Source: Methylopila capsulata
GTDB lineage: Bacteria > Pseudomonadota > Alphaproteobacteria > Rhizobiales > Methylopilaceae
Reading direction: 5' to 3'
NCBI RefSeq assembly: GCF_016907975.1
Contig: NZ_JAFBCY010000002.1
Span: 1 to 64,000, forward strand
DNA: 64,000 nucleotides
Under the pieces are notes generated by a model that ran no database searches, was not told where the DNA came from, and saw only the letters and a program-made list of their open reading frames with translations. Positions 39,533 to 54,234 of this stretch are shown piece after piece. The translations under genes and the position numbers were made by a program. Positions within the stretch are counted from its first letter, which is position 1; the number at the start of each line of letters is the position of its first letter.

Positions 39533-41083
39533 TCAGCGGCCGGACAATTTCGTGAGACTAGGTTCAAAAAGCAGGTTGTGCATCAGAACCCGCAGCCGCG
39601 GCGGGCTGACCGGCTTCACAAGCACCGGAAGACCCGCGGCGCGGATGCCTTCGAGCACCCGCGGCTCCGCGTCCGCGGTGACGATCATCGCGGGCGTCGC
39701 GGCGCCGATCGCCTGCCGCACGCCTTCGACCACATCGACGCCCGTCCGGGTCTTCAGGTTGTAGTCCGCCACGATCAGCTGGGGCACGACGCCGCCTTCC
39801 ACCAGGCGGATGGCTTCGCTTTCGTCCGCCGCCGCATGCACGTCGATCCCCCAGCGGCGCAGGAGCTGCGTCATGGTCTCGCGCAGGATGTCGTCGTCCT
39901 CGACCAGGATGACCGGCGTGCCGACGAACTCCCCCGCGACCGCTTCGCTGATCTCCACCTCCCGGCCGGCCTCGCTGTGCCAGATGTTCCCGAGCGGGAC
40001 GGTGACCGAGAAGATCGATCCCCTGCCGACCTCCGAGCGCAGGCGGACGGGATGTTCGAGCAGCTCGGCCAGCCGCTTGACGATGTTGAGGCCGAGGCCG
40101 AGGCCGTTCTTCTGCATCCGCCGCTCTTCGGTCGCCCGGTAGAACTCGTCGAAGACCCGCTCGCGATCCTGGGGCCGGACGCCCCGGCCGGTGTCGACGA
40201 CCTCGATGCGGAGGCTCTTCCCCTCGCGGCGGCATCCGACCACGACGCCGCCGACCTCGGTGAAGCGGATCGCGTTGGCGACGAAGTTGCTCAGAATCCG
40301 CTCCAGCAGCGCGCGGTCGGTCGCAATCGTGCCGCGCGGGGCGACGAACTTCAGCCGCAACGCCTTCTCCTCCGCCTGGTGGCGGAACTGGATGTCGAGG
40401 CGTTCGAACAGCTGCGACAGCTGGAACGAGGTGATCCGCGGCTGAATGCGGCCGGCGTCGAGCTGACCGATCTGCAGCAGCGCGCCGAGCAGATCCTCCA
40501 TGATCGAGACCGCCACGCCCATGGCGTGCAGCATGTCGGAGCGATGCTCCTCGACCGGCTCGCGAATGCAGTTGTAGATCAGAATCTTGAGCGATGCGAG
40601 CGGCTGGCGGAGGTCGTGGTTCGCGGCCCGCAGGAAACGCGACTTCGCCTCGTCCGTCGCTTCGGCGGCCTCCTTGGCGAGTTGCAGCGCCGTCTCGTTG
40701 CGCTTGATCGCGGTCACGTCGGTGAAGGTCACCGTCATCCCGCCGACACGGGAGCCCGCGTGGGTCACCTGCATCACCGCGCCGGTCGCGAACAGGTAGT
40801 CGCGCTGCTTCTCGACGCCGAAGTCGGCGATCTCCTCGCGCTCCCACTCGTCCGGCTCGCACGGCAGGAAGCATTCGTGCGAGCGCGCCATGGCGGAGAC
40901 GAAGGCGTCGTAGGTCATCCCGACCGACGCCGGGAGATCGCAGGTCTTGCGGAAACGGTCGTTGACGTAGAGCAGCCGGCGGTCGTCGCCCCAGACCAGG
41001 ATGCCGTTGGGGGCAACGTCGAGACCGGCCCAGATGGCCGCCAGCCGATCGTCCGCGTCCGCGGCGCGGTCGGCCTCAGCCAC
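39533..41083 (-). CDS. Soluble hybrid histidine kinase (PAS-HisKA-HATPase-REC)
   Basis: 516 aa without membrane helices. PAS_7-type PAS domain (about 15-125, NGILVWGDDRRLLYVNDRF), a short coiled coil, HisKA with the phospho-acceptor His in RAANHDLRQPLASL, HATPase with N-box ILSNFVANAIRFT and G-boxes DTGRGV and GLGLNIV, then a receiver domain with Asp in LIVADYNL. The RAANHDLRQP box belongs to the orthodox PAS_7 hybrid kinase group that pairs with LuxR-type regulators. It overlaps the response regulator by 8 bases. Signal input may come from the co-transcribed binding protein. Confidence 0.92.
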   Translation of the reverse strand: MAEADRAADADDRLAAIWAGLDVAPNGILVWGDDRRLLYVNDRFRKTCDLPASVGMTYDAFVSAMARSHECFLPCEPDEWEREEIADFGVEKQRDYLFATGAVMQVTHAGSRVGGMTVTFTDVTAIKRNETALQLAKEAAEATDEAKSRFLRAANHDLRQPLASLKILIYNCIREPVEEHRSDMLHAMGVAVSIMEDLLGALLQIGQLDAGRIQPRITSFQLSQLFERLDIQFRHQAEEKALRLKFVAPRGTIATDRALLERILSNFVANAIRFTEVGGVVVGCRREGKSLRIEVVDTGRGVRPQDRERVFDEFYRATEERRMQKNGLGLGLNIVKRLAELLEHPVRLRSEVGRGSIFSVTVPLGNIWHSEAGREVEISEAVAGEFVGTPVILVEDDDILRETMTQLLRRWGIDVHAAADESEAIRLVEGGVVPQLIVADYNLKTRTGVDVVEGVRQAIGAATPAMIVTADAEPRVLEGIRAAGLPVLVKPVSPPRLRVLMHNLLFEPSLTKLSGR

Positions 41084-41780
41084 GTCCTGCGGTCGCCGCG
41101 GCGCCGAACCGGCTGATGGCGTAGTGCACCGCGGCCGAGCGGTCGCGGATGTTCAGCTTCCGCATGGCGTTGCCGAGATGGACGCGGACGGTCTGGCTGC
41201 TGAGCTCCAGCTCCTCGGCGATCCGCTTCACCGAATAGCCGCGCCCGAGCAGGCTGAGAACGCCCCGCTCGCGGGCGGTGAGCGCATCGAGATCGCGCTC
41301 GGGATCGATCGCGGCCGCCACGGCCGTCGTCGCCTCGGCCGAAGCCGGAGCCCGCGGCGGCGCCGGCGGCTGGGCGGAGGCGGAGCGCTCGATGATCCGG
41401 CGGGGGAAGCTGACCTCGCCCGCAAGCACCCGTTCGAGCGCGCGCTCGATCTCCGGCCCGCCGGACGACTTGGGAATGTAGCCGATCACGCCCTGTTCGA
41501 CCGACCGCAGAACGTGGTCCACGTCCTCGTGGACCGACACGACCACGACGGGGACGTCGGGGAAACTCGCGCGCAGCCGCCGCAGTCCGTCGAAGGCGTC
41601 GAAGCCGGGCATCACGAGGTCGACCAGCATCAGATCGATGTCGTCGTGCTCGACCAGCATGGCGGCCGCCTCGTCGAACGTCTCGGCCTCGTAGGTCTCG
41701 AGCGCCTGATGCAGGCGCCGCATGACCTGCTTCAGGGACTGTCGAACCACCCAGTGGTCGTCGGCGATGAGAACCTTCAT
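41076..41780 (-). CDS. NarL/LuxR-type response regulator
   Basis: 234 aa starting MKVLIADDHWVVRQ at the ATG 41780; a longer frame extends upstream but has no family homology. Receiver domain with phospho-Asp in LMLVDLVMPGFD, an Ala/Pro-rich linker (about 135-165), and a LuxR-type HTH (LTARERGVLSLLGRGYSVKRIAEELELSSQTVRVHL). It heads the leftward operon and is divergent from the DMF transport/degradation genes, which makes it the best candidate for binding the CTAG palindromes at 42108, 42816, 47846 and 53354. Confidence 0.92.
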   Translation of the reverse strand: MKVLIADDHWVVRQSLKQVMRRLHQALETYEAETFDEAAAMLVEHDDIDLMLVDLVMPGFDAFDGLRRLRASFPDVPVVVVSVHEDVDHVLRSVEQGVIGYIPKSSGGPEIERALERVLAGEVSFPRRIIERSASAQPPAPPRAPASAEATTAVAAAIDPERDLDALTARERGVLSLLGRGYSVKRIAEELELSSQTVRVHLGNAMRKLNIRDRSAAVHYAISRFGAAATAGRG

Positions 41781-42208
41781 GCCTTCACGCGATCGCTTCT
41801 CTCGGCGCTGCGTTGCGTCTAGCGCTGACGCTGCTTCGACGCGCGCGCCGCCCGCCCATCCAAACCTTCTGTCACGATTGCCGCACCTTTCCAAGAGGAC
41901 AGCAAAGGCGCTCCACCGCTGCTTTGGGCCAACCAACGGCGTGCGACGTCGCCGTCGGGCACGGCGACGGTCCCCGCACGGATGCCTTTCGCCTCCGTGA
42001 AACTCAACGGACTCCGGGGCTAGTCGCCCTGCGTCGGATTTCTGTGGTCGGAGCAAAGACGACAGCTTGACGACCGGATCGGCGCAGCCTTAGGCTCCAA
42101 TAAATGTCTAGATGATACATCTAGCTTTGGTCGCGTGTTGCGACAGTCGGCGAGCCGTCATAAGGAACGATCGATGGGCCTCGTCTCCAGATCCCTGGAC
42201 TGACCGGC
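41781..42208. promoter_or_regulatory. Divergent control region between regulator and DMF genes
   Basis: 428 bases between the leftward regulator operon and the rightward small gene at 42209. It holds a perfect CTAG palindrome at 42108-42124 and a single CGTCTAG half-site at 41816-41822, close to the regulator start, which would allow autoregulation. ORFs crossing it are shadows. Confidence 0.5.
42108..42124. promoter_or_regulatory. CTAG operator, site A (perfect 7-3-7 inverted repeat)
   Basis: CTAGATG-ATA-CATCTAG is a perfect inverted repeat with a 3-base centre, 85 bases before the start of the 121-aa gene and about 330 bases from the response regulator start. It is the cleanest copy of the motif seen again at 42816, 47846 and 53354. 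Confidence 0.75.
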
Positions 42209-42574
42209 ATGCTCCCGAAGCCCGCCGCTGGAGATCTCAGAACCCTCCCGGAGCGCCGACGCTACGGTCGAAAGCAGCGCGAATTTTTGCGGTCCCTCGC
42301 GACCAACGCCGTGATCGACGAGCACAGGCGCTCGCCGCAGCCCGGCCAACGCAGCGAAGCCCTCGAGCGGCTGATGGTCTATTTCCAGCGGGAGGCCGCG
42401 GCCGACGGCTACGCGGTGCTGGTGGTGAAGCCGTTCGAGGCCTACCGACTCGTTGAGAACGCAAGGGGCTTGGGCCTTGGACCCCGCGCCCTCGACGACC
42501 AGTTCTACGCGTCGCCGGAGGAGGCCGAACACGGCCTTTTCCTCCGCCGCATCCACGATCTCTTCGAAACATGA
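42209..42574 (+). CDS. Hypothetical protein, 121 aa, in the DMF cluster
   Basis: Unknown small soluble protein. The first 45 residues are basic (LPERRRYGRKQREFLRSL), the rest is mixed alpha/beta with AVLVVKPFEAYRLVEN and ALDDQFYASPEEAEHGLFLRRIHDLFE. No metal motif, signal peptide or HTH is apparent. It is the first rightward gene after the regulator, has the perfect CTAG operator 85 bases upstream, and is followed by the hairpin region before the ABC transporter genes. A role in DMF uptake or regulation is suggested by context only. Confidence 0.6.
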   Translation: MLPKPAAGDLRTLPERRRYGRKQREFLRSLATNAVIDEHRRSPQPGQRSEALERLMVYFQREAAADGYAVLVVKPFEAYRLVENARGLGLGPRALDDQFYASPEEAEHGLFLRRIHDLFET

Positions 42575-42581
42575 CGACGCC

Positions 42582-42663
42582 GGCGCGCGCAAACGCGCGC
42601 CCCGCCCTTGGCGCAAGTAGCCCGACAGATCAGGCGAGCCGCCTCCGCCGGCCGCCTCGCCGG
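42582..42663 (+). promoter_or_regulatory. Hairpin region sharing an element with the amiE leader
   Basis: GGCGCGCG and CGCGCGCC (42582-42601) form a strong hairpin right after the 121-aa gene. Then comes GTAGCCCGACAGATC (42617-42631), identical to 26110-26124, preceded in both places by CTTGGCG. As in the amiE leader, AGCCC can pair with a downstream GGGCT (with inner AGGCGAG/CTCGCC), but no T tract follows. It may be a terminator or attenuator controlled by AmiR. Confidence 0.55.
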
Positions 42664-42785
42664 GGCTCACGGCCGAATCCGCTCAATTTCGCGACGCCGT
42701 GCACAGCAAGGGAGCGGCCTTTGAGCACGAAAACGGCGCCGGGCTGCGTCGCACGGAGAAATTTCGATGCCTCTAAAGAAAGACC

Positions 42786-42832
42786 TTGACGACCTTTCGC
42801 ACCGCACCCTAGCATCTAGATGTAAAGTCTAG
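42786..42832 (+). promoter_or_regulatory. Probable promoter with CTAG operator, site B
   Basis: CTAGATG-TAA-AGTCTAG (42816-42832) matches site A at most positions; CATCTAGATG at 42813-42822 is itself a perfect palindrome. Just upstream, TTGACG (42786) and TAGCAT (42810) could be -35 and -10 boxes with an 18-base spacer, placing the operator at the start of transcription of the transporter operon. Confidence 0.6.
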
Positions 42833-42903
42833 TTGCAAGTGCTTGGGCCTTGCCGGACCGCCTTTTCTTTCGCCTTTACGCCTTTCACCTAGGGGCCGCC
42901 CAC

Positions 42904-44211
42904 ATGCAGTTCACCCGCCGTAATTTACTGAAGACGACGGCAGCGGCCTCCGCCGCTCTTGCTGCGCCGCATCTTTGGTTGCCGACCGCCAGCGAGGCCT
43001 GGGGCGCGACCCTGAAGAAGGGGGAGCCGATCAAGGTCGGCCTGCTGTTCTCCCTCACCGGCTCGCTCGCGGTTCCGGAGGAAGATTCGACCCTCGTGAT
43101 GCAGTACGCCATCGAGGAGATCAACAAGGCGGGCGGCGTCGCCGGCGTGCCGATCGAGCCCGTGATCGTCGACGCCAAGTCGGACTTCGCGGTCTACTCC
43201 GAGAAGGCCAAGGAGCTGATCCTGCGCGAGAAGGTCATCGCGCTGTTCGGCTGCTACACCTCGGCGAGCCGCAAGGCGATCCTGCCGACCGTCATGCAGC
43301 GCGACCACCTGCTGTACTACCCGACCTGCTACGAAGGCGCGGAGTGCACGCAGAACACCATCTGCACCGGCCCGCTCGCCAACCAGCATTCGCAGGACCT
43401 GATCCCCTTCATGGTTCAGCAGTTCGGCAAGCGCGTGTTCTTCGTCGGCTCGAACTACGTGTGGCCGAAGGAGTCGAACAAGAACGCAAAGGTGTGGTTG
43501 CAGAAGGCCGGCGGCGAGCTGCTCGGCGAAGAGTACATCCCGCTCGGCAGCTCCGAGTTCGGACCCGTGTTGAACAAGATCCGCGAAGCCAAGCCCGACT
43601 TCATCTTCTCGACCGTGGTCGGCGCGTCGGACATCGCGTTCCACAAGCAGTTCAAGCAGGAAGGCTTCAAGGCCGACAAGATGCCGATCGCCTCGCTCAC
43701 CACCGGTGAGATCGAGACGCGCGCCATGGGCGCCGAGTTCGGCGCCGGCCACTTCCTGTCGGCCCCGTACTTCCAGAGCCTCGACAACCCCACCAACAAC
43801 AAGTTCGTCGAGAACTTCCTGAAGTCGAAGTACGGCAAGAACGGCACGACCCACTACAACATGGAGGAGACCTACACCTCCGCCTACGTGTTCAAGGCCG
43901 GCTTCGAGAAGGCCGCGGCCGCGGTGGGCTTCGAGAACGTCACGCCGCGCGCGATCCGCGATCATTCGGGCGGCGTCCGCGTCGAGGACAACGTCTCGCC
44001 GGAAGGCCTGATCTGGATCGACGAGAACAACTTCAACTGCTGGCTGAAGCCGAAGATCGGCCAGTGCCAGGCCGACGGCACCTTCAAGATCGTGAAGGCC
44101 GCCGACAGCCACGTCGCGCCGGACCCCTACTCGATCTATCCCGACGCCGGCGTCTGCACCAAGGACGGCCTCAAGGCTCCCGACGGCAAGATCCGCAAGA
44201 GCGTCATCTGA
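42904..44211 (+). CDS. Urea/short-chain amide ABC transporter substrate-binding protein (UrtA/FmdD-like)
   Basis: 435 aa with a Tat-type signal (FTRRNLLKTTAAASAALAAPHLW; twin Arg then hydrophobic core), so it is exported folded. IKVGLLFSLTGSLAVPEEDSTLVMQYAIEEIN, FGCYTSASRKAILP, YPTCYEGAE and FVGSNYVWPKESN match the UrtA/AmiC/FmdD branch that binds urea and short amides. With the next four genes it forms a five-component UrtABCDE-type importer. Context with dimethylformamidase suggests DMF or formamide as ligand; the sequence alone cannot decide. It is separated from the permeases by a strong hairpin, as is usual where binding protein is made in excess. Confidence 0.88.
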   Translation: MQFTRRNLLKTTAAASAALAAPHLWLPTASEAWGATLKKGEPIKVGLLFSLTGSLAVPEEDSTLVMQYAIEEINKAGGVAGVPIEPVIVDAKSDFAVYSEKAKELILREKVIALFGCYTSASRKAILPTVMQRDHLLYYPTCYEGAECTQNTICTGPLANQHSQDLIPFMVQQFGKRVFFVGSNYVWPKESNKNAKVWLQKAGGELLGEEYIPLGSSEFGPVLNKIREAKPDFIFSTVVGASDIAFHKQFKQEGFKADKMPIASLTTGEIETRAMGAEFGAGHFLSAPYFQSLDNPTNNKFVENFLKSKYGKNGTTHYNMEETYTSAYVFKAGFEKAAAAVGFENVTPRAIRDHSGGVRVEDNVSPEGLIWIDENNFNCWLKPKIGQCQADGTFKIVKAADSHVAPDPYSIYPDAGVCTKDGLKAPDGKIRKSVI

Positions 44212-44221
44212 GCTCACGTCT

Positions 44222-44256
44222 GTGCCCCGCGGCGCCGAGGAGGCGCCGCGGGGCAC
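44222..44256 (+). terminator. Partial terminator/stabilising hairpin after the binding-protein gene
   Basis: GTGCCCCGCGGCGCC pairs perfectly with GGCGCCGCGGGGCAC around a 5-base loop and is followed by ATTTATT. It lies between the binding-protein and permease genes and probably reduces downstream expression and protects the upstream mRNA. Confidence 0.8.
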
Positions 44257-44344
44257 ATTTATTGCAACGCAGCATCAGCGCCGCGCCGGCGGCGGCGCGG
44301 CATACGCTGGGAATGGCCCCACGCGGGCGAATGGGTAAGGCGCC

Positions 44345-45220
44345 ATGGATCTCGGATCGCTTCTGAACGCGCTCATTCTGGGCGTCAGCATCGCCAGCAT
44401 CTGGCTGATCGCGGCGCTCGGGCTCACGATCATTTACGGCACGGCCGGGGTGATCAACATGGCGCACGGCGAGTTCATCATGCTCGGCGCCTACAGCTCC
44501 TACATGCTGCAGTTCTATCTCGGGCTGCCTTACCTGCTGTGCCTGCCGGCGTCCTTCGTGATCGTCGCGCTGGTCGGCCTGGCGCTCGAGCGCGGGCTGA
44601 TCCGCTATCTCTACAACCGCCCGCTCGACACATTGCTCGCGACCTACGGCGTCTCGCTCGTGCTGATGCAGGGCGTCCGCCTGATCTTCGGCAGCGACCC
44701 GAAGTACCTCGCGGTGCCGGAGATGTTCCAGAGCAACGTGATGCTCGGCTCCGCCTCGATCTCGGCGTTCCGTATCGTCGTCCTCGGCATCACCGCCTTC
44801 CTCGTGTTCGCGCTCTGGCTGCTGTTCTACAAGACGCGGTTCGGCGTGCAGGTCCGCGCGGTGATGCAGAACAAGGAGATGGCCGCCTCTTTCGGCATCA
44901 ACTCCGGCCGCATCTACATGATGACCTTCGCGCTCGGCGCGGGCCTCGCCGGCGTCGCCGGCGCGCTGTTCGGCGTGCTCGCCATCGTGCTTCCGACCAT
45001 GGGCGCGAGCTATGTGGTGCAGGCCTTCCTGATGGTGGTCGTGGGCGGCGGTTCGCTCGCCGGCAGCGTGGTGGCGAGCGGCGTGACCGGCGAAATGCAG
45101 TCCGTGTTCGCCTTCTTCACCAACGACACCTTCGCCCGCTTCATCATCTTCGTGCTGATCGTGGTGTTCCTGCGGTTCCGTCCGCAAGGCCTCTTCGCCC
45201 AGGCCGGCGCGCGCCGATGA
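44345..45220 (+). CDS. ABC transporter permease (UrtB/LivH-like)
   Basis: 291 aa, about eight hydrophobic helices. ALGLTIIYGTAGVINMAHGEFIMLGAY is the LivH/UrtB signature, and GSLAGSVVASG lies near the C-terminus. It forms half of the membrane channel with the LivM-like gene that follows after 45 bases. No TorF or regulatory domain is fused. Long UrtB proteins carry an extracytoplasmic N-terminal extension; this one does not, so it is nearer to the LivH/FmdE size. Confidence 0.9.
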   Translation: MDLGSLLNALILGVSIASIWLIAALGLTIIYGTAGVINMAHGEFIMLGAYSSYMLQFYLGLPYLLCLPASFVIVALVGLALERGLIRYLYNRPLDTLLATYGVSLVLMQGVRLIFGSDPKYLAVPEMFQSNVMLGSASISAFRIVVLGITAFLVFALWLLFYKTRFGVQVRAVMQNKEMAASFGINSGRIYMMTFALGAGLAGVAGALFGVLAIVLPTMGASYVVQAFLMVVVGGGSLAGSVVASGVTGEMQSVFAFFTNDTFARFIIFVLIVVFLRFRPQGLFAQAGARR

Positions 45221-45265
45221 GCGCGCCCTCCATCAGCAACGCCACCGCGGGATCGCTCTGAGACC

Positions 45266-46369
45266 ATGGGAAATCTCTATCACAACAAGACGGCGCAGTG
45301 GCTGACCTACGCCGTGTTCTTCGCGGGCTTCGCCGTCATCCCGATGACGGTCGACGACAGCTTTCTGCTGAACCAGCTCGCGACCTACGGCGTCTACGGG
45401 ATGCTAGCGCTGTCGATCAGCCTGTGCTGGGGCTTCGGCGGCATCCTGAACCTCGGCCAGGGCATCGCCTTCGGCCTCGGCGCCTACGGCATGGCGATGA
45501 CCATGCAGATGCAGACGCAGGATGAATCCAACCCGATCCCGCCCTTCATGCTGAACAACAGCCTGGACCACCTGCCGATGCTCTGGCAGCCGTTCCAGAA
45601 CACCTATGTCGGCATGATCCTCGCGGTCGCGGCGCCCACGCTGTTCTGCGCGGTGTTCGGCGGCATCATGTTCCGGGCGCGCGTCTCCGGCCCGTTCTTC
45701 GCGATCATGACGCTCGCGATGCTGTCCGCCTTCTACACCATCATCATCGACCGCCAGCCCTACACCGGCGGCGTCAACGGCCTCACCCCGCCCTCCTCCC
45801 TGCAGTTCGCAGGGTACGAGGTCGATCCCTACAGCCCGACCGCCTACTGGGTGGTGTTCGGCTTCCTGCTCGGCGCCACCGTGATCGCCAAGCTGATCAC
45901 GCAGAGCTCGTTCGGGCTCGTGACCCAGGCGATCCGCGACGACAGCGAGCGCGTCCGCTTCCTCGGCTACAGCGTCGCGGGCTACGAGACGGTGATCTAC
46001 ACCGTCTCCGGGCTGATCGCGGCGATCGCCGGCTGCTGCTGGGTCATGCTGGTGCAGTACGTCTCGCCGGCCCAGCTCGACGTCGGCTTCAGCCTCTCGA
46101 TGGTGATCTGGGCGGCGATCGGCGGGCGCTACTCGCTGCTGGGATCGATCCTCGGCGCCTTCATCATCCAGGGCGCCCAGAGCTACCTCGGCGACACCTT
46201 CCTCGCCACCTGGCTCCTGATCCTCGGCGGCTTCTTCATCATCGTCGTCCGGTTCCTGCCGAACGGTCTCGCGAGCCTGGTCGAATCCGGCCTCGGCCTG
46301 TTCGCGGCCAAGCGCGGGCCGGCCTCGGCCGAGCCGAACGGCGACGCCAAACCCATTCCCGCGGAGTAA
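45266..46369 (+). CDS. ABC transporter permease (UrtC/LivM-like)
   Basis: 367 aa, about nine to ten hydrophobic segments. LATYGVYGMLALSISLCWGFGGILNLGQGIAFGLGAYGMAM is the LivM/UrtC signature. RDDSERVRFLGYSVAGYETVIYTVS is the cytoplasmic coupling region. An insert after the first helices (QTQDESNPIPPFMLNNSLDHLPM) is also found in urea/amide-type members. It pairs with the LivH-like permease. Confidence 0.9.
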   Translation: MGNLYHNKTAQWLTYAVFFAGFAVIPMTVDDSFLLNQLATYGVYGMLALSISLCWGFGGILNLGQGIAFGLGAYGMAMTMQMQTQDESNPIPPFMLNNSLDHLPMLWQPFQNTYVGMILAVAAPTLFCAVFGGIMFRARVSGPFFAIMTLAMLSAFYTIIIDRQPYTGGVNGLTPPSSLQFAGYEVDPYSPTAYWVVFGFLLGATVIAKLITQSSFGLVTQAIRDDSERVRFLGYSVAGYETVIYTVSGLIAAIAGCCWVMLVQYVSPAQLDVGFSLSMVIWAAIGGRYSLLGSILGAFIIQGAQSYLGDTFLATWLLILGGFFIIVVRFLPNGLASLVESGLGLFAAKRGPASAEPNGDAKPIPAE

Positions 46370-46377
46370 GGACGGCG

Positions 46378-47124
46378 ATGCCAGGCCTTCTCGAAATCCA
46401 CAATCTGTCGAAGAGCTTCGACGCCACCAAAGTCATCAACGACTTCAGCATGGAGGTCACCGAGGGAACGCTGTGCTGCCTGGTCGGACCCAACGGCGCC
46501 GGCAAGACCACGACGATGGACCTCATCACGGGCCGCATCAAACCGACCTCGGGCAAGATCGTCTTCGCGAACGAAGACATCACCGCGAAGCACGAGCACA
46601 TCATCGCCCGCGCCGGCATCGGCCGGAAGTTCCAGGTGCCGGCGGTGCTGCGCGACATGACGGTGCGGCAGAACCTCGAGGTCGCCTACAGCCGGCAGAC
46701 CAACCCGTTCTGGAACCTGTTCAAGTTCCGCGTCACGGGGCTCAAGCAGAAGCTCGACGAGATCGCGACCCTCGCCGGCCTCACCGACCGCCTGAACGAC
46801 CGCGCCGGCATCCTCTCCCACGGCGAGACCCAGTGGCTCGAGATCGGCATGGTCTTGATGCAGGAGCCGCGGCTGCTGCTGATGGACGAGCCGATCGCCG
46901 GGATGACCGAGGGCGAGATCGAGAAGACCGCCCGCATCTTCAAGGACCTGCGCAAGACCGCGACGCTCGTCGTGGTCGAGCACGACATGGGCTTCGTGCG
47001 CGAGATCGCCGACGAGGTCGTTGTGATGCACATGGGATCGCTGCTCGCCCAGGGCACGATCCAGCAGATCGAGGCGAACCCGCGGGTGCGCGACGTCTAT
47101 CTCGGCGAGCAGGAGGCGGCATGA
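46378..47124 (+). CDS. ABC transporter ATPase (UrtD/LivG-like)
   Basis: 248 aa. Walker A GPNGAGKTTTMD, ABC signature LSHGETQWLEIGMVL (the ETQWLEI form, with H in place of the second signature residue, is typical of UrtD), Walker B LLLMDEPIAGMT and switch His in VEHDMGF. It supplies ATP hydrolysis to the importer as one half of a heterodimer. The ATG at 47121 of the partner gene overlaps its stop codon. Confidence 0.92.
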   Translation: MPGLLEIHNLSKSFDATKVINDFSMEVTEGTLCCLVGPNGAGKTTTMDLITGRIKPTSGKIVFANEDITAKHEHIIARAGIGRKFQVPAVLRDMTVRQNLEVAYSRQTNPFWNLFKFRVTGLKQKLDEIATLAGLTDRLNDRAGILSHGETQWLEIGMVLMQEPRLLLMDEPIAGMTEGEIEKTARIFKDLRKTATLVVVEHDMGFVREIADEVVVMHMGSLLAQGTIQQIEANPRVRDVYLGEQEAA

Positions 47125-47825
47125 GCACGCTGCTCAACTTCGAAAACGTCACGTCCTATTACGGCGCGACGCGCATCCTGAAGGACTTCTCTTTCGAGAT
47201 GGAGCAGGGCCAGTGCCTCTGCGTGCTCGGCCGCAACGGCGTCGGCAAGACCACGCTGATGCGCACCATCATGGGGCTGACCGACCGCTCCACCGGGGCG
47301 ATCCGCATCAACGGCGCGGAAATCTCCGCCAAGCCGCCGCACGTCCGCGCCACCTACGGCCTGGGCTACGTGCCCCAGGGTCGCGGCATTCTCTCGGACT
47401 TCACGGTGCGGGAGAACATCCTGCTCGGCACCTTCGCCCGCGCCGACAAGGCCTCCGAGATCCCGGACATCTGCCTGAGGATCTTCCCCTATCTCAAGGA
47501 GAACCTCGACAAGCGCGCCGGCCTGCTCTCGGGCGGGCAGAAGCAGCAGCTCGCGATCGCCCGCGCGCTCGCGGTCGGCCCGCAGATCCTTCTGCTCGAC
47601 GAGCCGACCGAGGGCATCCAGCCCAACATCGTCAACGAGATCGGCGAGATCCTGAAGATGCTCAACAAGGAGCTGGGCATCAGCCTGATCCTGACCGAGC
47701 AGCACATCAAGGTCGCCCGCAAGCTCGGCGACGCCTTCCTGATGGTCGACAACGGCCGCGTCGTCGCGCGCGGACCCATCGCGGAGATGACCGACGAGCT
47801 GGTCAACCGCCATATGACCATCTAG
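47121..47825 (+). CDS. ABC transporter ATPase (UrtE/LivF-like)
   Basis: 234 aa. Walker A GRNGVGKTTLMR, signature LSGGQKQQLAIARAL, Walker B LLLDEPTEGIQPN and TEQHIKVAR are typical of UrtE/LivF. The first CTAG half-site (CATCTAG at 47819) overlaps its stop codon. It is the last gene of the transporter operon; dmfA1 starts 186 bases further. Confidence 0.92.
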   Translation: MSTLLNFENVTSYYGATRILKDFSFEMEQGQCLCVLGRNGVGKTTLMRTIMGLTDRSTGAIRINGAEISAKPPHVRATYGLGYVPQGRGILSDFTVRENILLGTFARADKASEIPDICLRIFPYLKENLDKRAGLLSGGQKQQLAIARALAVGPQILLLDEPTEGIQPNIVNEIGEILKMLNKELGISLILTEQHIKVARKLGDAFLMVDNGRVVARGPIAEMTDELVNRHMTI

Positions 47826-47862
47826 ACGTCAGCGCAAATAAACATCTAGACGTATCGTCCAA
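47819..47862 (+). promoter_or_regulatory. CTAG operator region before dmfA1, sites D1 and D2
   Basis: CATCTAGACGT occurs twice as a direct repeat, at 47819-47829 and 47843-47853 (24 bases apart, so on about the same helix face). The second has a partial inverted partner: CTAGACG-TAT-CGTCCAA. These lie 150-190 bases before dmfA1 and are the only CTAG cluster in the vicinity. No clear -35/-10 pair was identified. Confidence 0.6.
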
Positions 47863-48011
47863 ATTGATTGCGCCTACGCTGGAATTGGTTTAGTTTCGGC
47901 AAGTCATCATCGGCGGGACGACGCCTTGCCCCCGCCCGGTATAGTGTCCTTCCGCAGCTTTTTATTGCGGCGGGCTCAGCTTCTTCATGACTACGCCTTG
48001 GGAGGACTGCA

Positions 48012-48452
48012 ATGATTCCGATCCCGAAGAAGGGCACGCCCGAACGCGAAGCCCTGATCAAGGAGCACAAGGACTGCGTCGACTCCATGAAGGGCGTCGC
48101 GGGCTTTTCGGTGCTGAAGTGCGAGACGCCCGGCGACACCACGGTGGTCACCGGCGGCGTCCATGAGGATCCGGTCCTGAAGCGCGTGCTGCTGCGCATG
48201 CGGGGCGAGTCGCCGAAGGGCAAGCTCATCGTGATCTGCACGAAGGTGGACGCCGAATGGCGCATCGGCCGCCTGTCCGGCATCCGCGGCGTGCCGCCGG
48301 AGTTCGTGAACGACAAAGTCTACACCGACGAGCAGGAAATCCAGCACGACATCTTCCTGATGCGCCTGGACGAGCTGCCCGAGACCGCCGGCATGCCGGA
48401 ACACTTCAACGAAGGCTGGAAGCGCCGGGACGACAACTGGCCGGTCACCTGA
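48012..48452 (+). CDS. dmfA1: N,N-dimethylformamidase small (alpha) subunit
   Basis: 146 aa; the published small subunits are about 130-150 aa. The protein (MIPIPKKGTPEREALIKEH, VTGGVHEDPVLKRVLLRMRG, NEGWKRRDDNWPV) is a small mixed fold with no known enzymatic motif. It binds the large subunit in the heterotetrameric or larger dimethylformamidase, which splits DMF into dimethylamine and formate. A GGGAGGA sequence precedes the ATG. Assignment rests on size, order before dmfA2 and recognisable sequence. Confidence 0.88.
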   Translation: MIPIPKKGTPEREALIKEHKDCVDSMKGVAGFSVLKCETPGDTTVVTGGVHEDPVLKRVLLRMRGESPKGKLIVICTKVDAEWRIGRLSGIRGVPPEFVNDKVYTDEQEIQHDIFLMRLDELPETAGMPEHFNEGWKRRDDNWPVT

Positions 48453-48520
48453 CCGCCCGACCTTTCCCGCGCTGAACCTCACACCGCTTCAGGCTCGCTT
48501 CACGCATGAGCGCCTTCCGC

Positions 48521-48540
48521 GCGGTCCCGACCGGGACCGC
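48521..48540 (+). other. Hairpin between dmfA1 and dmfA2
   Basis: GCGGTCCC-GACC-GGGACCGC is a perfect 8-bp stem with a 4-base loop in the 142-base gap. It may tune the ratio of the two subunits by stabilising the short upstream message. No T tract follows. Confidence 0.55.
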
Positions 48541-48594
48541 GAACGGCGGCGATTTGCCTGACGTCGGCCGCCATACCCTCGGAGACGACACCCC

Positions 48595-50991
48595 ATGTGC
48601 GCCATGCGGCTGACTGGTTACGCCGACAAGTTCGGCGTCCACCCCGGCGACACCGTCAAGTTCTACGTCAACTGCGACGGGCCGGCCGAATACGCCGCCG
48701 AGGTCGTCCAGATGATCAACGGCGACACCAATCCGCGCGGCCCGGGCTTCATCGAGAAGCCGATCGCGGCCGACGTCAACAAGACCTACGCGGGCCGCAA
48801 GCAGATCATCCACGGCGGCTCCTACGGCTTCGTCCCCGACGCCAAGCCGTTCCAGGTCGAGAGCTTCACGCTGCAGTGCTGGATCTGGCCGACGACGCCG
48901 AAGACCCATCCGCGCTACTGGAAGCACGGCGCGCAGGGCCTTGTGACCAAGTGGTCCAAGGACAAGGGCTACGGCCTCTTCATCAACGAGGACGGCTTCG
49001 TCGAGCTGCGCATCAACGAGCACAAGATCACGACCGGCGCGCCGATCCGCGACCACGCCTGGCACTTCATCGCCGCGACCTTCGACGCCGCCACCGGCGA
49101 CGTCACGCTCTACCATGAGCCGCAGGTGGTCTACGCGCTCGATCCCGTCATCGAGCCGGTGACCGCGACCATCGCGGCCAAGATCGAGCACTCGCCGATC
49201 CCGGTCGCCATCGCGGCCTACGTCGACACGCTCTCGGACGACCCGCTCGCGCAGTCCTCGCTGCCCGCCGGCGTCGTCTTCACGGGCAAGTACAACGGCA
49301 AGATCGACAGCCCGCGCATCTGCAAGAAGGCGCTGAGCCGGTTCGAGATCGAGCAGATGAAGGGCGGCGCCCAGCCCGGCCTCACCGAGCGCCGCAACTC
49401 CGGCCCGACCGGCGCGCTCTCGGAAGTCATCGTCGCCGCCTGGGACTTCTGGGACGGCATCGACACCATCGTCGCCAAGGATAACGGCCCCTACCGGTTC
49501 GACGCCCGGCTCGTGAACTGCCCGACGCGCGCGCTCACCGGCTACAACTGGGCCGGCCAGAACTTCGACTGGAAGCACGCGCCCAAGGAATACGGCGCGA
49601 TCCACTTCCACGACGACGACGTCGACGACGCCCGCTGGAGCGCCGACATCGAGTGGACGGTCCCGGCCGAGATCAAGAGCCGGTTCTACGCGCTCAAGCT
49701 CACCACGAGCGAGGGCGACGAGGACTACATCCCGTTCTGGATCGTGCCGAAGATCGGCGAAGAGCAGTCCAAGATCGCCGTGATGGTCCCGACCATCAGC
49801 TACATGGCCTACGCCAACGAACACGTGGCCTGCAACGCCGGCGGCGCCGAGCTGTTCATCTACCGCGTGCCGATCATGCAGCACCAGAACATGTTCCTGG
49901 CCGAGCACCGCGAATACGGCGGCTCGATCTACGACACCCACACCGACGGCTCGGGCATCTGTCTGTCGTCGCGGCTGCGTCCGATCCTGTCGATCCGCCC
50001 GAAGTACGACCACTTCCTGGCCCAGGCGCCATGGCAGTATCCGGCCGATCTCCACCTGATCTACTGGCTGGAGACGATGGGCTACGAGTACGACGTCATC
50101 ACCGACGAGGACGTCACCTACGACGGGATCGCCCGGCTCGAGAACTACAACGTCGTCATCACCGGCTCGCACCCCGAGCACAACTCGGGCACGCAGCTCG
50201 ACGCCCTGCACAACTACACGCAGCGCGGCGGCCGCCTGATGTATATGGGCGCGGACGCCTGGTACTGGGTGCACTCGTTCCACCCGGCCTATGACGACCT
50301 CGGCCGCGGCGTCGTCACCGAGATGCGCCGCTGCGAGAGCGGCATCCGCACCTGGCGCGCCGATCCCGGCGAGTATTACCACCAGGGCACCGGCGAACTC
50401 GGCGGCATGTGGCGCTACCGCGGCCGTTACCTGCACTCGGTGGCGGGCGTCGGCATGTCGTCGGAAGGCTTCGACATCTCGAGCTACTTCAGCCGCACCT
50501 CCGAGAGCCTCGATCCCCGCGTGTCCTGGGCGTTCGAGGGCATCGACTACGACGAGAAGCTCGGCAACTTCGGCCTCGTGGGCGGCGGCGCCGCTGGCCT
50601 CGAGCTCGACATCGTCGACACCATGCTGGGCTCGCCCCCGCACACGCTGGCGGTCGCGACGTCGGCCGGCCGCCACACCGAGGCCTACCTCCTCGTCATG
50701 GAGGACTTCGGCTTCAACCAGCAGGGCCTCGACGGCACGACGCATCCCCGCGTGCGCGGCGACATCGCCTACCACGAGACCCCGAACGGCGGCGCGGCCT
50801 TCTCGTTCTCGTCCATCGCGTTCTGCGGCTCGCTCCCCTGGAACGAGTGCAAGAACAACATCTCGACTCTGGTCGGCAACGTGCTGAACCGCTTCATGGC
50901 GGACGGCCCCCTGCCGCCCCCGCCGGCCGACGCGATCAAGCACCGCGGCCGCGCCGACTACGAGTCCCCCGCTCTGGCGTCGCGCGCGTAA
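48595..50991 (+). CDS. dmfA2: N,N-dimethylformamidase large (beta) subunit
   Basis: 798 aa. A concanavalin/LamG-like domain (about 80-190, SFTLQCWIWPTTP and GLVTKWSKDKGYGLFINEDG) precedes the catalytic domain (about 330-780) with HREYGGSIYDTHTDGSGICLSSR, DLHLIYWLETMGYEYDVITDEDV, TGSHPEHNSG and GGRLMYMGADAWYWV. Published dimethylformamidases use a mononuclear iron held by two tyrosines and a glutamate; GSHPEH is a good candidate for the Glu region and YEYD or YGG for the Tyr, but I cannot assign numbers. It cleaves the amide bond of DMF without redox chemistry. ATG choices are 48595 and 48604. Cytoplasmic: no signal peptide. Confidence 0.92.
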   Translation: MCAMRLTGYADKFGVHPGDTVKFYVNCDGPAEYAAEVVQMINGDTNPRGPGFIEKPIAADVNKTYAGRKQIIHGGSYGFVPDAKPFQVESFTLQCWIWPTTPKTHPRYWKHGAQGLVTKWSKDKGYGLFINEDGFVELRINEHKITTGAPIRDHAWHFIAATFDAATGDVTLYHEPQVVYALDPVIEPVTATIAAKIEHSPIPVAIAAYVDTLSDDPLAQSSLPAGVVFTGKYNGKIDSPRICKKALSRFEIEQMKGGAQPGLTERRNSGPTGALSEVIVAAWDFWDGIDTIVAKDNGPYRFDARLVNCPTRALTGYNWAGQNFDWKHAPKEYGAIHFHDDDVDDARWSADIEWTVPAEIKSRFYALKLTTSEGDEDYIPFWIVPKIGEEQSKIAVMVPTISYMAYANEHVACNAGGAELFIYRVPIMQHQNMFLAEHREYGGSIYDTHTDGSGICLSSRLRPILSIRPKYDHFLAQAPWQYPADLHLIYWLETMGYEYDVITDEDVTYDGIARLENYNVVITGSHPEHNSGTQLDALHNYTQRGGRLMYMGADAWYWVHSFHPAYDDLGRGVVTEMRRCESGIRTWRADPGEYYHQGTGELGGMWRYRGRYLHSVAGVGMSSEGFDISSYFSRTSESLDPRVSWAFEGIDYDEKLGNFGLVGGGAAGLELDIVDTMLGSPPHTLAVATSAGRHTEAYLLVMEDFGFNQQGLDGTTHPRVRGDIAYHETPNGGAAFSFSSIAFCGSLPWNECKNNISTLVGNVLNRFMADGPLPPPPADAIKHRGRADYESPALASRA

Positions 50992-51007
50992 GCGCGCGGG
51001 GCCAGCC

Positions 51008-51042
51008 GCCGGCGCCCGCACTCTTCCCCTGCGGGCGCCGGC
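51008..51042 (+). terminator. Strong hairpin after dmfA2
   Basis: GCCGGCGCCCGCA and TGCGGGCGCCGGC form a 13-bp stem with a 9-base loop, followed by TCTTCC. It probably ends or weakens dmfA transcription before the next gene, whose start is only 30 bases away. Confidence 0.7.
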
Positions 51043-51071
51043 TCTTCCATCGATCGATGAGGGATCGGACC

Positions 51072-52163
51072 ATGTCGCACAGACCCGACCTCGGCTATCA
51101 CGACGAGGGGCGCGACCTGGCGTCCTCCGCCTTCTATGCCGAGGCCCTCGGCGACGCGGCCCGCGTGCTCCCGCCGGCGGCGTTCCGGTCCCTGCCCTTC
51201 ACCCTGCTCGAAGACGAGGCGGTGTGGACGCGGGACTGGATCTGCGTCGGCGCGCATGAGGCGATCCCCCACGTCGGCGACCTGCTGCCCTTCACGATCG
51301 GAACCCATGGCGTCCACGTGCAGCGCACGGAGGGCGGCCTCGCCGCGCGCTTCAACAAGGCGCAGCACGGCGGCTGCCGCATGGTGCCGCTGCAGTGCCA
51401 GACCGGCGCCAAGACCAAGTGCTCCTTCACCTCCTGCGGCTACAGCCGCGACCGGCCCGCGATCCCTGCGCGCGACCTCGGCGAGGGCGCGCCGGAGATG
51501 CACCAGTATCTCGGGCTGCGTCCCGAGCGGCTGCTGACCGCCCAGGTCCGCAGCTGGGGGCCGCTGATCTTCGTCAACCTGGACGTCGCGCCCGCTTCGC
51601 CGGAGGCGAGCCTCGCCACGCTGAACCAGCTCGGCGGCTTCTTCGGCAACCACAAGAGCGCCCGCTCCGAGGAGATCTGGCTCGAGCATCCCGCCAACTG
51701 GAAGCTCGCCGGGCAGCATCTCGCCGGCGGCGAGCCGCTGTTCGACGACGGCGACCGCTGGCTCCTCGGCGTGACCACCTTGGCCGACGGTCGCGAAGCG
51801 CGGACGGCCTGGCTGTTTCCGAACCTCGTGCTGTTCGCGACCACCGACGAGACCTGCGTCGTCGTCCTGCAGCCGACCGCGATCGGACAGACGCTGTGCC
51901 GCGTCTCGGTCTATGGCGAGGGCTCGGCGACGAGCGCAGGCTTCTGGCGCGCAGAGATCGACCGCCGCGCCGGAGAGGCCGCGCAGGAGCATCTCGCGCT
52001 GTCGCGCTGGGGCACGCAGTTCCGGCCCGACACCATCGGCGCGCCGCCTCCCCGCCAGGCCGAACCGCACGGCCTCTGGATGCAGCGCGCGCTCGCGGAG
52101 CGGGTGGCCCGGGCGCCGCGCGAGGACCTTCCCCAGCCCCTGTTCCAGAATCCGAGAGGCTGA
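51072..52163 (+). CDS. Rieske-oxygenase-like protein lacking the metal ligands
   Basis: 363 aa from the ATG at 51072 behind GAGGGA (another ATG at 51057). The overall layout is that of a ring-hydroxylating oxygenase alpha subunit: N-terminal helix with VWTRDWICVG, a Rieske region (about 65-135), NWK at 209-211 and a C-terminal half with LWMQRAL. Yet the Rieske ligands are changed: CxHRG reads AQHGG (97-101) and CxYHGW reads CSFTSCGY (117-124), so one Cys and one His are lost. The E-x-YH-x4-H iron site after NWK is also absent. Four cysteines (102, 109, 117, 122) and His99 remain and might bind another metal. Probably a repurposed or structural protein of the DMF locus. Confidence 0.75.
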   Translation: MSHRPDLGYHDEGRDLASSAFYAEALGDAARVLPPAAFRSLPFTLLEDEAVWTRDWICVGAHEAIPHVGDLLPFTIGTHGVHVQRTEGGLAARFNKAQHGGCRMVPLQCQTGAKTKCSFTSCGYSRDRPAIPARDLGEGAPEMHQYLGLRPERLLTAQVRSWGPLIFVNLDVAPASPEASLATLNQLGGFFGNHKSARSEEIWLEHPANWKLAGQHLAGGEPLFDDGDRWLLGVTTLADGREARTAWLFPNLVLFATTDETCVVVLQPTAIGQTLCRVSVYGEGSATSAGFWRAEIDRRAGEAAQEHLALSRWGTQFRPDTIGAPPPRQAEPHGLWMQRALAERVARAPREDLPQPLFQNPRG

Positions 52164-52167
52164 CCCT

Positions 52168-52866
52168 ATGCTCTCCCTTCAGATCCCCGTCGACGACGCC
52201 ACGGTGATCGGCGCCGCGGTGTCCGCCTACAAGCGCGGCGACTTCGACGACGCCTTCGCGCAGTTCTCGAGCCTCGCCGACGCCGGCGACGCGGAGGCCA
52301 AGACCTGGCTCGGCGCGATGTACGCCCACGGCGAGGGCGTGCCGGCCTCGCTGCCGAAGGCGTTCGCCCTCTATCTCGAAGGTGCAGAGGCGGGCAATCC
52401 GCTGGCGCAGACCAACGTCGGCGCCATGCTGGCGATGGGACAGGGCGTCGCGACCGACGTCCCCGCCGGCGCCGCCTGGCTGAGGCGCGCCGCCGAACAG
52501 GGCGACGTTTTCGCGCAGTACAATCTCGCGACCCTCTGCTCGAAGGGACAGGGCGTCGGGCTCGATCCCGTGGAGGCGGCGCGCTGGTATCGCGCGGCGG
52601 CGGAGGCCGGCCATTACCCGTCGCAGGCGCGTCTTGGCTTCTTGTACGCCAACGGAATAGGCGTCGAGAAGAACCGGGCGCAGGCCTATGTCTGGCTGTC
52701 GCTGGCGGCCCAGCATGGGGTCGGCTCCGCGCTCAACGCGCTGGAGGCGATCGCCGGCCAGATGTCCGCCGACGAGAAGCGCGAGGGCGCCGCGGGCGTC
52801 GATCGCTGGCGCTCGCGCACGGCCGAGACCTCCCGGCACGCCCGCCTCAACCCGACCCCCGGCTGA
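52168..52866 (+). CDS. Sel1-repeat protein
   Basis: 232 aa. About five Sel1-like (SLR/TPR-type) repeats fill residues 35-205, visible as recurrent A-x2-LG-x-MYAHGEGV, TNVGAMLAMGQGV, YNLATLCSKGQGV and ARLGFLYANGIGV with WL/WY-RRAAE helices between. Such solenoids mediate protein-protein contacts. No signal peptide or membrane anchor is seen, so it is likely cytoplasmic. It starts 5 bases after the Rieske-like gene and is followed after 5 bases by a small gene, so the three form one operon. It may act as an assembly or scaffold factor for dimethylformamidase (inference). Confidence 0.88.
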   Translation: MLSLQIPVDDATVIGAAVSAYKRGDFDDAFAQFSSLADAGDAEAKTWLGAMYAHGEGVPASLPKAFALYLEGAEAGNPLAQTNVGAMLAMGQGVATDVPAGAAWLRRAAEQGDVFAQYNLATLCSKGQGVGLDPVEAARWYRAAAEAGHYPSQARLGFLYANGIGVEKNRAQAYVWLSLAAQHGVGSALNALEAIAGQMSADEKREGAAGVDRWRSRTAETSRHARLNPTPG

Positions 52867-52871
52867 CCGCG

Positions 52872-53168
52872 ATGGTGTTCAGCCCGCAGCAGGTCAAGTT
52901 CGAATTCCTGAGCTACATCAAGGAATTCGGCGGAAATCCAACGGAGTGGCGCGTCGGCTGCGCGGAGGATGCGACGGCGGCGCTGTTCCACGAGAACGCG
53001 GTGGATCAGGACCGCGACATCTGGCTCTGGAAGCCGACGTTGTCGGCCGCTGCCGCGCGCATCGTGTTCCGGTACCTGACCGAACAGCTGCACGTGCCCT
53101 GCGCCAGCAGCGCAACCCCCGGCTCGAGCATCTTTCTGTTCAAACGCGGCGAGCTGCCGCTTGTTTGA
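52872..53168 (+). CDS. Hypothetical protein, 98 aa, in the DMF cluster
   Basis: Small soluble protein MVFSPQQVKFEFLSYIKEFGG with a central acidic part and IVFRYLTEQLHVPCASS near the end. No family is recognised. The ATG follows 5 bases after the Sel1-repeat gene, so it is almost certainly translated in the same operon. Composition matches the chromosome. It ends 250 bases before the porin gene. Confidence 0.65.
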   Translation: MVFSPQQVKFEFLSYIKEFGGNPTEWRVGCAEDATAALFHENAVDQDRDIWLWKPTLSAAAARIVFRYLTEQLHVPCASSATPGSSIFLFKRGELPLV

Positions 53169-53353
53169 TCATTTCATCTAGCCGAAATGCCTTTTGCTGC
53201 GGCACCCTCGCATAGTTTTAACCTGATCACCGCGAGCAACATGCGGCGTCTTGTCCCGCATATGCATGTCTTTCCAATCTTTTAATCGCCAATCCGAAGT
53301 GCTGCATTCTCGCAACACTTGCTTCTCATCTTCGCCAGCGCAGCATTTTTGGC

Positions 53354-53384
53354 CTAGCTATGACATCTAGATGAAGCTTAGATG
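53354..53384 (+). promoter_or_regulatory. CTAG operator region before the porin gene, site C
   Basis: CTAGCTA-TGA-CATCTAG (53354-53370) has the 7-3-7 layout of site A, and the overlapping CATCTAGATG (53364-53373) is a perfect palindrome. A further CTTAGATG lies at 53377-53384, and a lone CATCTAG half-site at 53175-53181. The cluster is 35-65 bases upstream of the porin start. Confidence 0.65.
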
Positions 53385-53418: not shown

Positions 53419-54234
53419 ATGTCTTACGCTTTGAAACTTGCCTGCGCCGCGCTCGTCGGAGCCGCAGCTCTGCCGCTGAGCGACGCCGCCATGGCCGCGG
53501 ATCTCGCCGCCCCCGAAGCGTTCGTCGTCGAGACCATGTCTCCGATCGACGTCTCGTTCGGCGTGAAGTTCGCCACCGAGTACAACCTGCGCAGCGTCAG
53601 CCAGAGCAAGGGCGATCCGGCGGTCCAGGGCTACGTCGAAGTCTCGGCGTTCGATTGGGTCTACGCCGGCTTCTGGGCGTCGAACGTCAACTTCGGCGGC
53701 GCCGATCCCACGGCCGAGCTCGACTACTACGGCGGCGTGCGTCACACCTTCGACGCGCTGACCCTCGACGCCGGCTTCCTCTACATCGACTACGTCGGCC
53801 AGATCAACGGCACGCGTTCGCTCGACTTCTGGAAGATCTACGGCATCGCGAAGTACGCCGTGACCGCCGACTTCTCGGTCGGCGCCAACGTCTATTGGAC
53901 GAGCGATTTCGTCAACATCGGCGACGACAGCACCCACAGCTCGCTGTTCGCCAAGTACTCGATCCCGTCGTCGCTGATGCCGATCCCGGACGTGGGCGCC
54001 TACGTCTCGGCCGAAGTCGGCAAGTTCTGGATCAAGTCGCCCATCCTTCCGGACTACACCTTCTGGAACGCCGGCGTCGGCTTCACCTACAAGGCCATGA
54101 CCCTCGACCTCCGCTACACCGACAGCAACCTGTCGCGTCGCGAGTGCGCCACCTTCATCGGCCAGTTCAACTCGTGCGGCGATCGCTACATGGCGAGCCT
54201 GTCGTTCGACACGTCCTTCAGCAAGCTGAAGTAA
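53419..54234 (+). CDS. TorF-family outer-membrane porin
   Basis: 271 aa. A signal peptide (YALKLACAALVGAAALPLSDAAMA, cleavage likely after AMA) precedes a beta-barrel sequence with alternating aromatic strands (FATEYNLRSVSQSKGDPAVQGYVE, AGFWASNVNFGG, DYYGGVRHTF) and a C-terminal strand ending in TSFSKLK, a form close to the aromatic signature of barrel assembly. The family (TIGR02001/Gcw_chp) is mostly uncharacterised. Its CTAG operator and its place after the DMF genes suggest a role in outer-membrane passage of amides. A strong terminator follows. Confidence 0.82.
   Translation: MSYALKLACAALVGAAALPLSDAAMAADLAAPEAFVVETMSPIDVSFGVKFATEYNLRSVSQSKGDPAVQGYVEVSAFDWVYAGFWASNVNFGGADPTAELDYYGGVRHTFDALTLDAGFLYIDYVGQINGTRSLDFWKIYGIAKYAVTADFSVGANVYWTSDFVNIGDDSTHSSLFAKYSIPSSLMPIPDVGAYVSAEVGKFWIKSPILPDYTFWNAGVGFTYKAMTLDLRYTDSNLSRRECATFIGQFNSCGDRYMASLSFDTSFSKLK

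Follow-up and report, generated by a model that had tools for sequence, protein, structure and literature searches.

The operators of the response regulator NarL are inverted repeats of the heptamer TACYYMT in a 7-2-7 arrangement. In the AmiC-AmiR system of Pseudomonas aeruginosa an intracellular amide sensor with a binding-protein fold feeds the regulator AmiR, which is an RNA antiterminator. Here we describe a CTAG-centred palindrome from Methylopila capsulata that lies upstream of genes for dimethylformamidase (DMFase)-family enzymes and for uptake; it is very probably the operator of a NarL/LuxR-type response regulator (RR), which is encoded nearby at 41076-41780 on the minus strand. All coordinates refer to a stretch of 64,000 nucleotides (nt), called the window below; the genome to which it belongs (G000) comprises 4.135 Mb in 8 contigs. 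For DMFase-family genes the only regulator named in the portions of the open-licence literature examined is DmfR of Paracoccus aminophilus pAMI2, a LuxR-family activator of dmfA1A2 (PMC4543880, in the part consulted). Another LuxR regulator, with a GerE but no receiver domain, is encoded directly upstream of DMFase-like genes in Aminobacter pcAMD1.

The RR of the window shares with NarL/FixJ-family regulators the architecture of a receiver (REC) plus a GerE domain, head-to-head half-sites and a short spacer. It differs from NarL in its predicted half-site, TCTAGAYG, and in a spacer of 3 bp, which sets the CTAG starts 13 bp apart. By description, DmfR and the RR both belong to the LuxR family, and DmfR also controls DMFase-family genes; the Aminobacter pcAMD1 regulator is 33% identical to the RR over 58 residues of the GerE stretch. 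In pAMI5 of P. aminophilus, genes for an RR and a kinase stand beside a DMFase-family pair that is 66-70% identical to the pair in the window; however, the pAMI5 RR shows just 32% identity, and the 18-kb stretch contains no exact CTAG-N9-CTAG. The best NCBIfam names are ErdR for the RR (125.4 of 390 bits) and NahK/ErcS for the kinase next to it (331.3 of 400 bits), yet both scores are below the cut-offs and the target genes differ. The likeness to AmiC-AmiR is by description only: an amide sensor inside the cell, here combined with a kinase and a predicted DNA-binding RR. No description of the operator was found in the open-licence literature, including the accessible part of PMC3925955, as the initial annotation had already indicated. 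The element and its regulon appear to be new, whereas the regulator is of a familiar kind, and comparative support for this view is strong. Such a sharply defined operator for a regulon around DMFase-family enzymes in methylotrophic bacteria would predict which DMFase-family clusters fall under two-component control. A second enzyme cluster would come under this control as well, as would a porin and an orphan small subunit.

Putative operator sites in the window and the genome

The palindrome CTAGATGNNNCATCTAG occurs at 42108-42124 without mismatch and at 42816-42832 and 53354-53370 with 2 mismatches each, as the initial annotation had described. Within 3 mismatches the window contains 4 matches versus 0.81 expected, and none of 100 shuffles reached 4. 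CTAG itself is depleted, with 25 copies versus about 70 expected; its rarity had also been noted before. The palindrome is genuine and far exceeds what chance would give.

In the 4.135 Mb of the genome only 5 places have up to 2 mismatches to the 7-3-7 pattern, and 3 of these are 42108, 42816 and 53354. At 3 mismatches there is no genome-wide excess (36 places versus 128 for the pattern read backwards). The exact pair CTAG-N9-CTAG, to which the comparison described below reduces the putative operator, occurs eight times. Three are the window sites; one (C1:455047) precedes a second RR gene copy by about 300 bp; three are inside tRNA genes (C1:326572, Pro; C3:674727, His; C4:436148, Lys). The remaining pair, C3:346131, scores -2.2 bits and is neither near an RR copy nor in a tRNA gene. 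Two candidates for further regulon members were dropped: C3:674727 because of the tRNA-His gene and C3:740329 because it has no CTAG-N9-CTAG.

In the window the putative operator is found upstream of a small-subunit gene, an ABC-transporter operon, dmfA1 and a porin gene. Bit scores for these sites and for the second RR copy come from matrices whose training set excluded the window sites and included sites of L011, a locus from a near-identical genome. An out-of-genus model (R2), which was built from 16 sites all outside the genus, avoids training on L011. O1 (42108-42124), the perfect CTAGATG-ATA-CATCTAG, precedes the gene for a 121-amino acid (aa) protein, and O2 (42816-42832), CTAGATG-TAA-AGTCTAG, lies at -10/+1 of a candidate transporter promoter; both have an E-value of 0.011 in the out-of-genus model. 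O3 (47846-47862), CTAGACG-TAT-CGTCCAA, stands before dmfA1 with one arm degraded (19.2 bits; out-of-genus E 9.9). O4 (53354-53370), CTAGCTA-TGA-CATCTAG, stands before the porin gene and scores 24.4 bits with the matrix that includes L011; in relatives, exact pairs are located at -61 to -76 of the porin gene start. When the out-of-genus model was run on the whole genome at E<=10, it returned only 42108, 42816 and 47846, the last ranking third.

Not all sites that had been proposed survived this scoring. The two elements before dmfA1, at 47819 and 47843, do form a direct repeat of CATCTAGACG, 24 bp apart, which is not a 7-3-7 arrangement. The copy at 47843 is operator-like, being one half of the degraded palindrome O3. 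The copy at 47819 scores only 4.8 bits, and its TAG terminates the reading frame of the upstream ABC ATPase, whose protein ends in HMTI; we reject it as an operator, while a minor role may still be possible. The single half-sites at 41816 (-17.6 bits) and 53175 (4.0 bits) were likewise rejected by matrix score. As to the statement that comparable clusters are missing elsewhere in the window, six CTAGs lie at 37164-37958; none are 13 bp apart, but one place among them, 37952, scores 16.7 bits.

As separate observations, the ATPase stop codon at 47819-47828 lies within a CATCTAG, and by eye a CTAG is seen at the same gene end in several relatives that have the RR. The six CTAGs at 37164-37958 and the match at 37952 are held by an AT-rich orphan gene (37164-37967, minus strand) with no Pfam match.

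The putative operator follows the response regulator gene in relatives

We collected related loci by a scan of genome contigs with DmfA2 and kept the best 80 of 107. The window genes were placed on these 80 loci by tblastn, and a locus was called an RR locus if it had an RR of more than 55% identity within the fetched stretch (n=20). With no motif assumed, the regions preceding dmfA1, the transporter and the porin gene were then scanned for every tetramer-gap-tetramer dyad. This comparison used the 20 RR loci and 57 loci without RR; the other 3 of the 80 were dropped, namely L012 (Hansschlegelia plantiphila) and L016 (Bosea sp. 117), which were removed from the non-RR group, and L076, which has no dmfA1 match.

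The commonest palindromic dyad upstream of the dmf genes was CTAG-N9-CTAG, present in 15/20 RR loci and in 0/57 loci without RR in the fetched stretch (Fisher test 4e-12, with kinship among the loci ignored). A spacing of 13 bp between CTAGs is the most frequent (24 pairs), followed by 24 bp (6 pairs). Over whole loci, exact pairs occur in 16/20 RR loci and 4/60 others; the four exceptions are H. plantiphila plus L070, L075 and L085, where the pair is outside the scanned upstream regions.

A symmetrised matrix from 35 distinct sites reads approximately TCTAGAY(G/A)-WWW-(C/T)RTCTAGA, with a frequency of 0.81 for the inner A/T beside each CTAG. With a leave-one-clade-out matrix (p<=0.02 per region, 100 shuffles each) and with L012 counted among the RR loci, a site was found in 39/45 upstream regions of RR loci. 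The site was missed before dmfA1 in four loci (L018, L019, L022, L024) and before the transporter in two (L031, L080). Transporter regions were left unscored where the locus edge was too near (L028, L030, L033, L034) or the gene was truncated (L032); the first four show no CTAG in 125 bp of this region. Among 99 regions from other loci none exceeded 10 bits, the best reaching 9.9, compared to 9.7 for the weakest accepted site of an RR locus. The proposed conservation of the motif before dmf genes was thus borne out.

Predictions from this pattern were tested by genome-wide searches for the RR, which covered 8 of the dmf genomes besides our own. H. plantiphila has sites at a locus without RR in the fetched stretch, and its RR (82% identity) is located about 4 kb beyond that stretch. 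In Bosea sp. 117 DmfA2 is 90% identical and there is no site; the best RR match in that genome is only 38%. In Chelatococcus reniformis the RR (75%) is on another contig, and a pair lies about 330-340 bp upstream of that RR gene.

The same relation was seen within the genus. When 13 congeneric genomes (our own included) were searched with the out-of-genus model at E<=5, matches occurred in 7/8 genomes with RR and 0/5 without RR; this comparison mainly shows specificity, because the five RR-negative genomes were taken regardless of their dmf gene content. The 22 matches represent 14 distinct places, many being hit on both strands, and none is farther than about 11 kb from an RR gene. In G201, the one RR genome without a match, an exact pair precedes the RR by 358 bp. 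These results, together with the own-genome scans, agree with the expectation that unrelated loci are not as rich in the motif.

RR homologues (E<=1e-40) were detected in 16/397 sampled genomes of the order. We counted the duplicates L095/L131, L096/L134 and L103/L147 once each and looked for an exact pair up to 600 bp upstream of the gene. Such a pair is present for 16/20 distinct homologues of at least 64% tblastn identity (our own two included), for 0/5 at 45-54% and for 0/8 at 37% or less. The four homologues of at least 64% without an exact pair are L129, L132 and L139, with sites of 25.4, 16.2 and 17.3 bits, and L144, with none. A 26.6-bit match in L141, which had just 316 bp of upstream sequence, was taken as chance; it falls inside a long open frame read as a kinase gene.

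The motif is nearly restricted to these genes, and its presence depends on a linked RR gene. Because the pairs are usual where an RR gene is nearby and are not found where it is not, the RR probably binds the predicted sites. The earlier suggestion that the NarL-type regulator at 41076-41780 is the candidate binder gains from this covariation across relatives, and we consider it very likely that CTAG-N9-CTAG is the operator of this RR.

Promoter geometry and the possible direction of control

The proposed mechanism is as follows. A dimer of the RR would recognise, through its GerE domains, two TCTAGAY half-sites whose CTAG starts are 13 bp apart. A small amide would be reported by a hybrid PAS kinase (39533-41083) together with a sensor of the binding-protein type in the cytosol (38232-39506), and these two would set the phosphorylation of the RR. 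The RR would then coordinate uptake, by the transporter and the porin, with hydrolysis by the DMFase-family enzyme and the extra small subunit.

The positions of the sites relative to the promoters suggest the direction of control. The candidate promoter of the transporter operon (42786-42815, plus strand; TTGACG-18-TAGCAT) ends one base before O2 and is the sole sigma-70-type match in 41700-43000, where 0.1 are expected. O2 lies roughly at -6 to +11 of this promoter, and therefore occlusion is favoured. In 9/13 orthologous transporter promoters that carry a CTAG, this CTAG abuts the -10; in 6 of these 9, though not in L012, L020 and L023, an exact pair starts at that CTAG. In Bosea (L016) the transporter promoter is kept without the CTAG. 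The second cluster of our genome has TTGACA-18-TAGCCT and then CTAG, and the second-cluster operator of H. plantiphila is 10 bp further down. The 121-aa gene has a candidate promoter with TTGACG at 42067 and TAGGCT ending at 42096, and O1 is downstream of its -10. For the porin gene no promoter was assignable.

At dmfA1 the geometry is different. The candidate promoter (47868-47896, plus strand; TTGCGC-17-TAGTTT) has the CTAG of O3 22 bp upstream of its -35. It was not recovered by the promoter scan, and the -35 was hand-picked from the register of the relatives (TTGACG-18-TAGNTT). In a set of 17 loci, which omits L018, L019, L022 and L024 because the matrix found no dmfA1 site there, the distance from the CTAG start to the -35 downstream is exactly 22 bp in 13 and 23 bp in one more; the register is absent in L014, L015 and L083. 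The distances in the window and in L011 are not independent evidence, because TTGCGC was chosen by hand as the -35. A CTAR is found at +12 from the start of the dmfA1 -35 in 11/17 relatives. This suggests an activator site at dmfA1 plus, in some clades, a negative site.

From this geometry we tentatively propose activation at dmfA1, where most relatives have the CTAG 22 bp ahead of the -35. Occlusion or negative gating would operate at the promoters of the transporter and the 121-aa gene, where the operator is at or downstream of the -10; as a whole this assignment falls a little short of being probable. An alternative scheme seems rather unlikely, namely that the RR only represses, occluding every one of these promoters until the amide signal relieves the block. 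It draws on the CTAG abutting the -10 in 9 of 13 transporter promoters, with an exact pair in 6, and on the CTAR within most dmfA1 promoters. The most constant dmfA1 half-site is nevertheless the one 22 bp upstream of the -35 (13/17, one of them hand-placed), and sites at such a distance upstream of -35 are usual for activators. It is also in favour of pure repression that ErdR, the best-scoring NCBIfam name albeit far below cut-off, represses most of its tested targets, according to the part of PMC9927353 consulted.

A bolder extension of the mixed activation and occlusion scheme is quite doubtful. The three genes for sensor, kinase and RR would form an amide-sensing system in the cytosol that reads one code oppositely, switching on the hydrolase from the site phased 22 bp before the -35 and switching off the promoters of the transporter, the porin and the orphan small subunit from sites located at the -10 or below it; paralogous clusters would cross-talk, and the orphan small subunit would be swapped into one enzyme. 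The cross-talk between two DMFase-type clusters would follow from the shared operator code and a 76%-conserved sensor.

Alternative explanations for the palindromes

Several observations weigh against the RR as the binder. O4 was missed by the out-of-genus model at E<=10, one arm of the dmfA1 site in the window is degraded, the operator of the second RR copy is weak (13.7 bits), and the E-values of the out-of-genus matches in the genus are modest (0.0097-1.7). The Methylobacterium transporter promoter lacks a site despite the RR, dmfA1 of Hyphomicrobium/Methyloligella has none, and the dmfA2 locus of Chelatococcus has no pair though an RR is elsewhere in the genome. Finally, the recognition helix of L098 and L145 (52-54% identity) is almost unchanged and that of L144 (64%) is similar, but their best sites score just 2.8, 7.7 and 3.0 bits, respectively.

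Another linked factor could account for the palindromes, since the RR, kinase and sensor genes are linked to each other. The palindromes would then be operators of a factor that is linked to, or co-inherited with, the dmf cluster, and the RR would be a bystander. The co-occurrence is indeed correlative, the genes for RR, kinase and binding protein travel together, and the neighbouring genes are only partly classified, which leaves room for some other common DNA-binding protein. However, a site accompanies the RR even away from the dmfA2 orthologue: RR homologues there still carry an upstream pair in our own second cluster and in Chelatococcus, and H. plantiphila is a further case. The site is also absent at dmf clusters without RR, including the Methylobacterium/Methylorubrum loci L040, L041, L042 and L045. 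We regard a bystander role of the RR as improbable.

It is less probable still, to the point of being remote, that the palindromes are RNA hairpins or terminators in leaders and not DNA operators. Two copies were flagged as terminator-like on the minus strand, and the transporter copy would fall at the 5' end of the transcript. However, covariation between the arms is missing: paired cells at the three inner positions match the expectation for independent halves (p 0.45, 0.80 and 0.25). The full 7-bp stem is present in 8/35 sites only, and the dmfA1 site lies upstream of its candidate promoter.

Chance clustering or a compositional artefact, for which one might cite the shortness of the motif, the AT-richer intergenic DNA, the three of eight exact pairs in tRNA genes and the missing excess at 3 mismatches, can practically be dismissed in view of the shuffle tests, the out-of-clade training, the absence of the pair upstream of dmf genes in 57 loci and the conservation of phased sites across clades.

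Regulator, proposed sensor and candidate target genes

Both Pfam domains of the RR, Response_reg (PF00072) and GerE (PF00196), score above cut-off, and the best solved match is NarL (1a04). According to the domain search the next gene (39533-41083, minus strand) encodes a hybrid histidine kinase with PAS_7-HisKA-HATPase-REC domains; hydropathy gave no clear membrane segment (1.56 versus 2.59 for a permease control). The third gene of this operon, downstream of the kinase (38232-39506, minus strand), encodes a Peripla_BP_6 protein. Its fold begins almost at the first residue, and a signal-like N-terminus was not seen by eye and hydropathy, the two means used. The closest solved relative is 3h5l. 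In 23 loci, namely the 20 RR loci plus L121, L124 and L125, the kinase gene is followed by a gene for this protein with 75-100% identity; the L011 copy of the gene is clipped by the locus edge. Judged from its sequence, it is plausibly a cytosolic amide sensor.

The 121-aa protein (42209-42574, plus strand) is a DMFase small-subunit homologue, with a match to 6lvb_B over residues 22-118 (E 2.4e-6) and 46% identity to the small subunit of the second cluster. Its gene is under purifying selection (pN/pS 0.11-0.14 against three close relatives). A tblastn search found no large subunit in the window besides dmfA2; the 121-aa gene has no adjacent large subunit of its own type. The ABC-transporter operon (42904-47825, plus strand) encodes a UrtA-like binding protein, two permeases and two ATPases, of which the second permease and the second ATPase were assigned from gene order and translation only. 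The porin gene (53419-54234, plus strand) encodes a putative porin of the TorF type, according to profile searches.

The genes labelled dmfA1 and dmfA2 (48012-50991, plus strand) encode a putative small subunit and a large subunit of the DMFase family, the large one with a DMFA2_C domain. The dmfA1 product (48012-48452) matches 6lvb_B weakly (E 0.12) and the small subunit of the second cluster with 39% identity over 77 residues. DmfA2 aligns to 6lvb_A with E 1.4e-151. The iron ligands of DMFase are Y399, Y440 and E521 (PMC7686228, in the part consulted); Y, Y and E are kept in DmfA2, as read by eye from the alignment to 6lvb_A.

The sites had been described as a regulon for the use of dimethylformamide (DMF). 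They do precede DMFase-family and uptake genes, but the substrate is another matter. DmfA2 is 70% identical to a protein of P. aminophilus pAMI5, and in the part of PMC4543880 consulted the pAMI5 dmfA copy was not found to be linked to DMF utilisation. The large subunit of the second cluster scores 612 bits against the solved Paracoccus DMFase, compared to 510 bits for the window DmfA2. Because the window enzyme is near the pAMI5 copy and the second-cluster enzyme resembles the solved DMFase more closely, 'DMF' should be read here as a label for the family only.

The second DMFase-like cluster is located in L121 at 7275-18774 (C1 of our own genome, about 447-459 kb) and has its own ABC transporter and its own copies of the RR, kinase and sensor genes. 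In the window, the gene that follows dmfA2 (about 51054-52163, plus strand) has a sub-threshold Ring_hydroxyl_A match; in pAMI5 an annotated biphenyl 2,3-dioxygenase is found after dmfA2.

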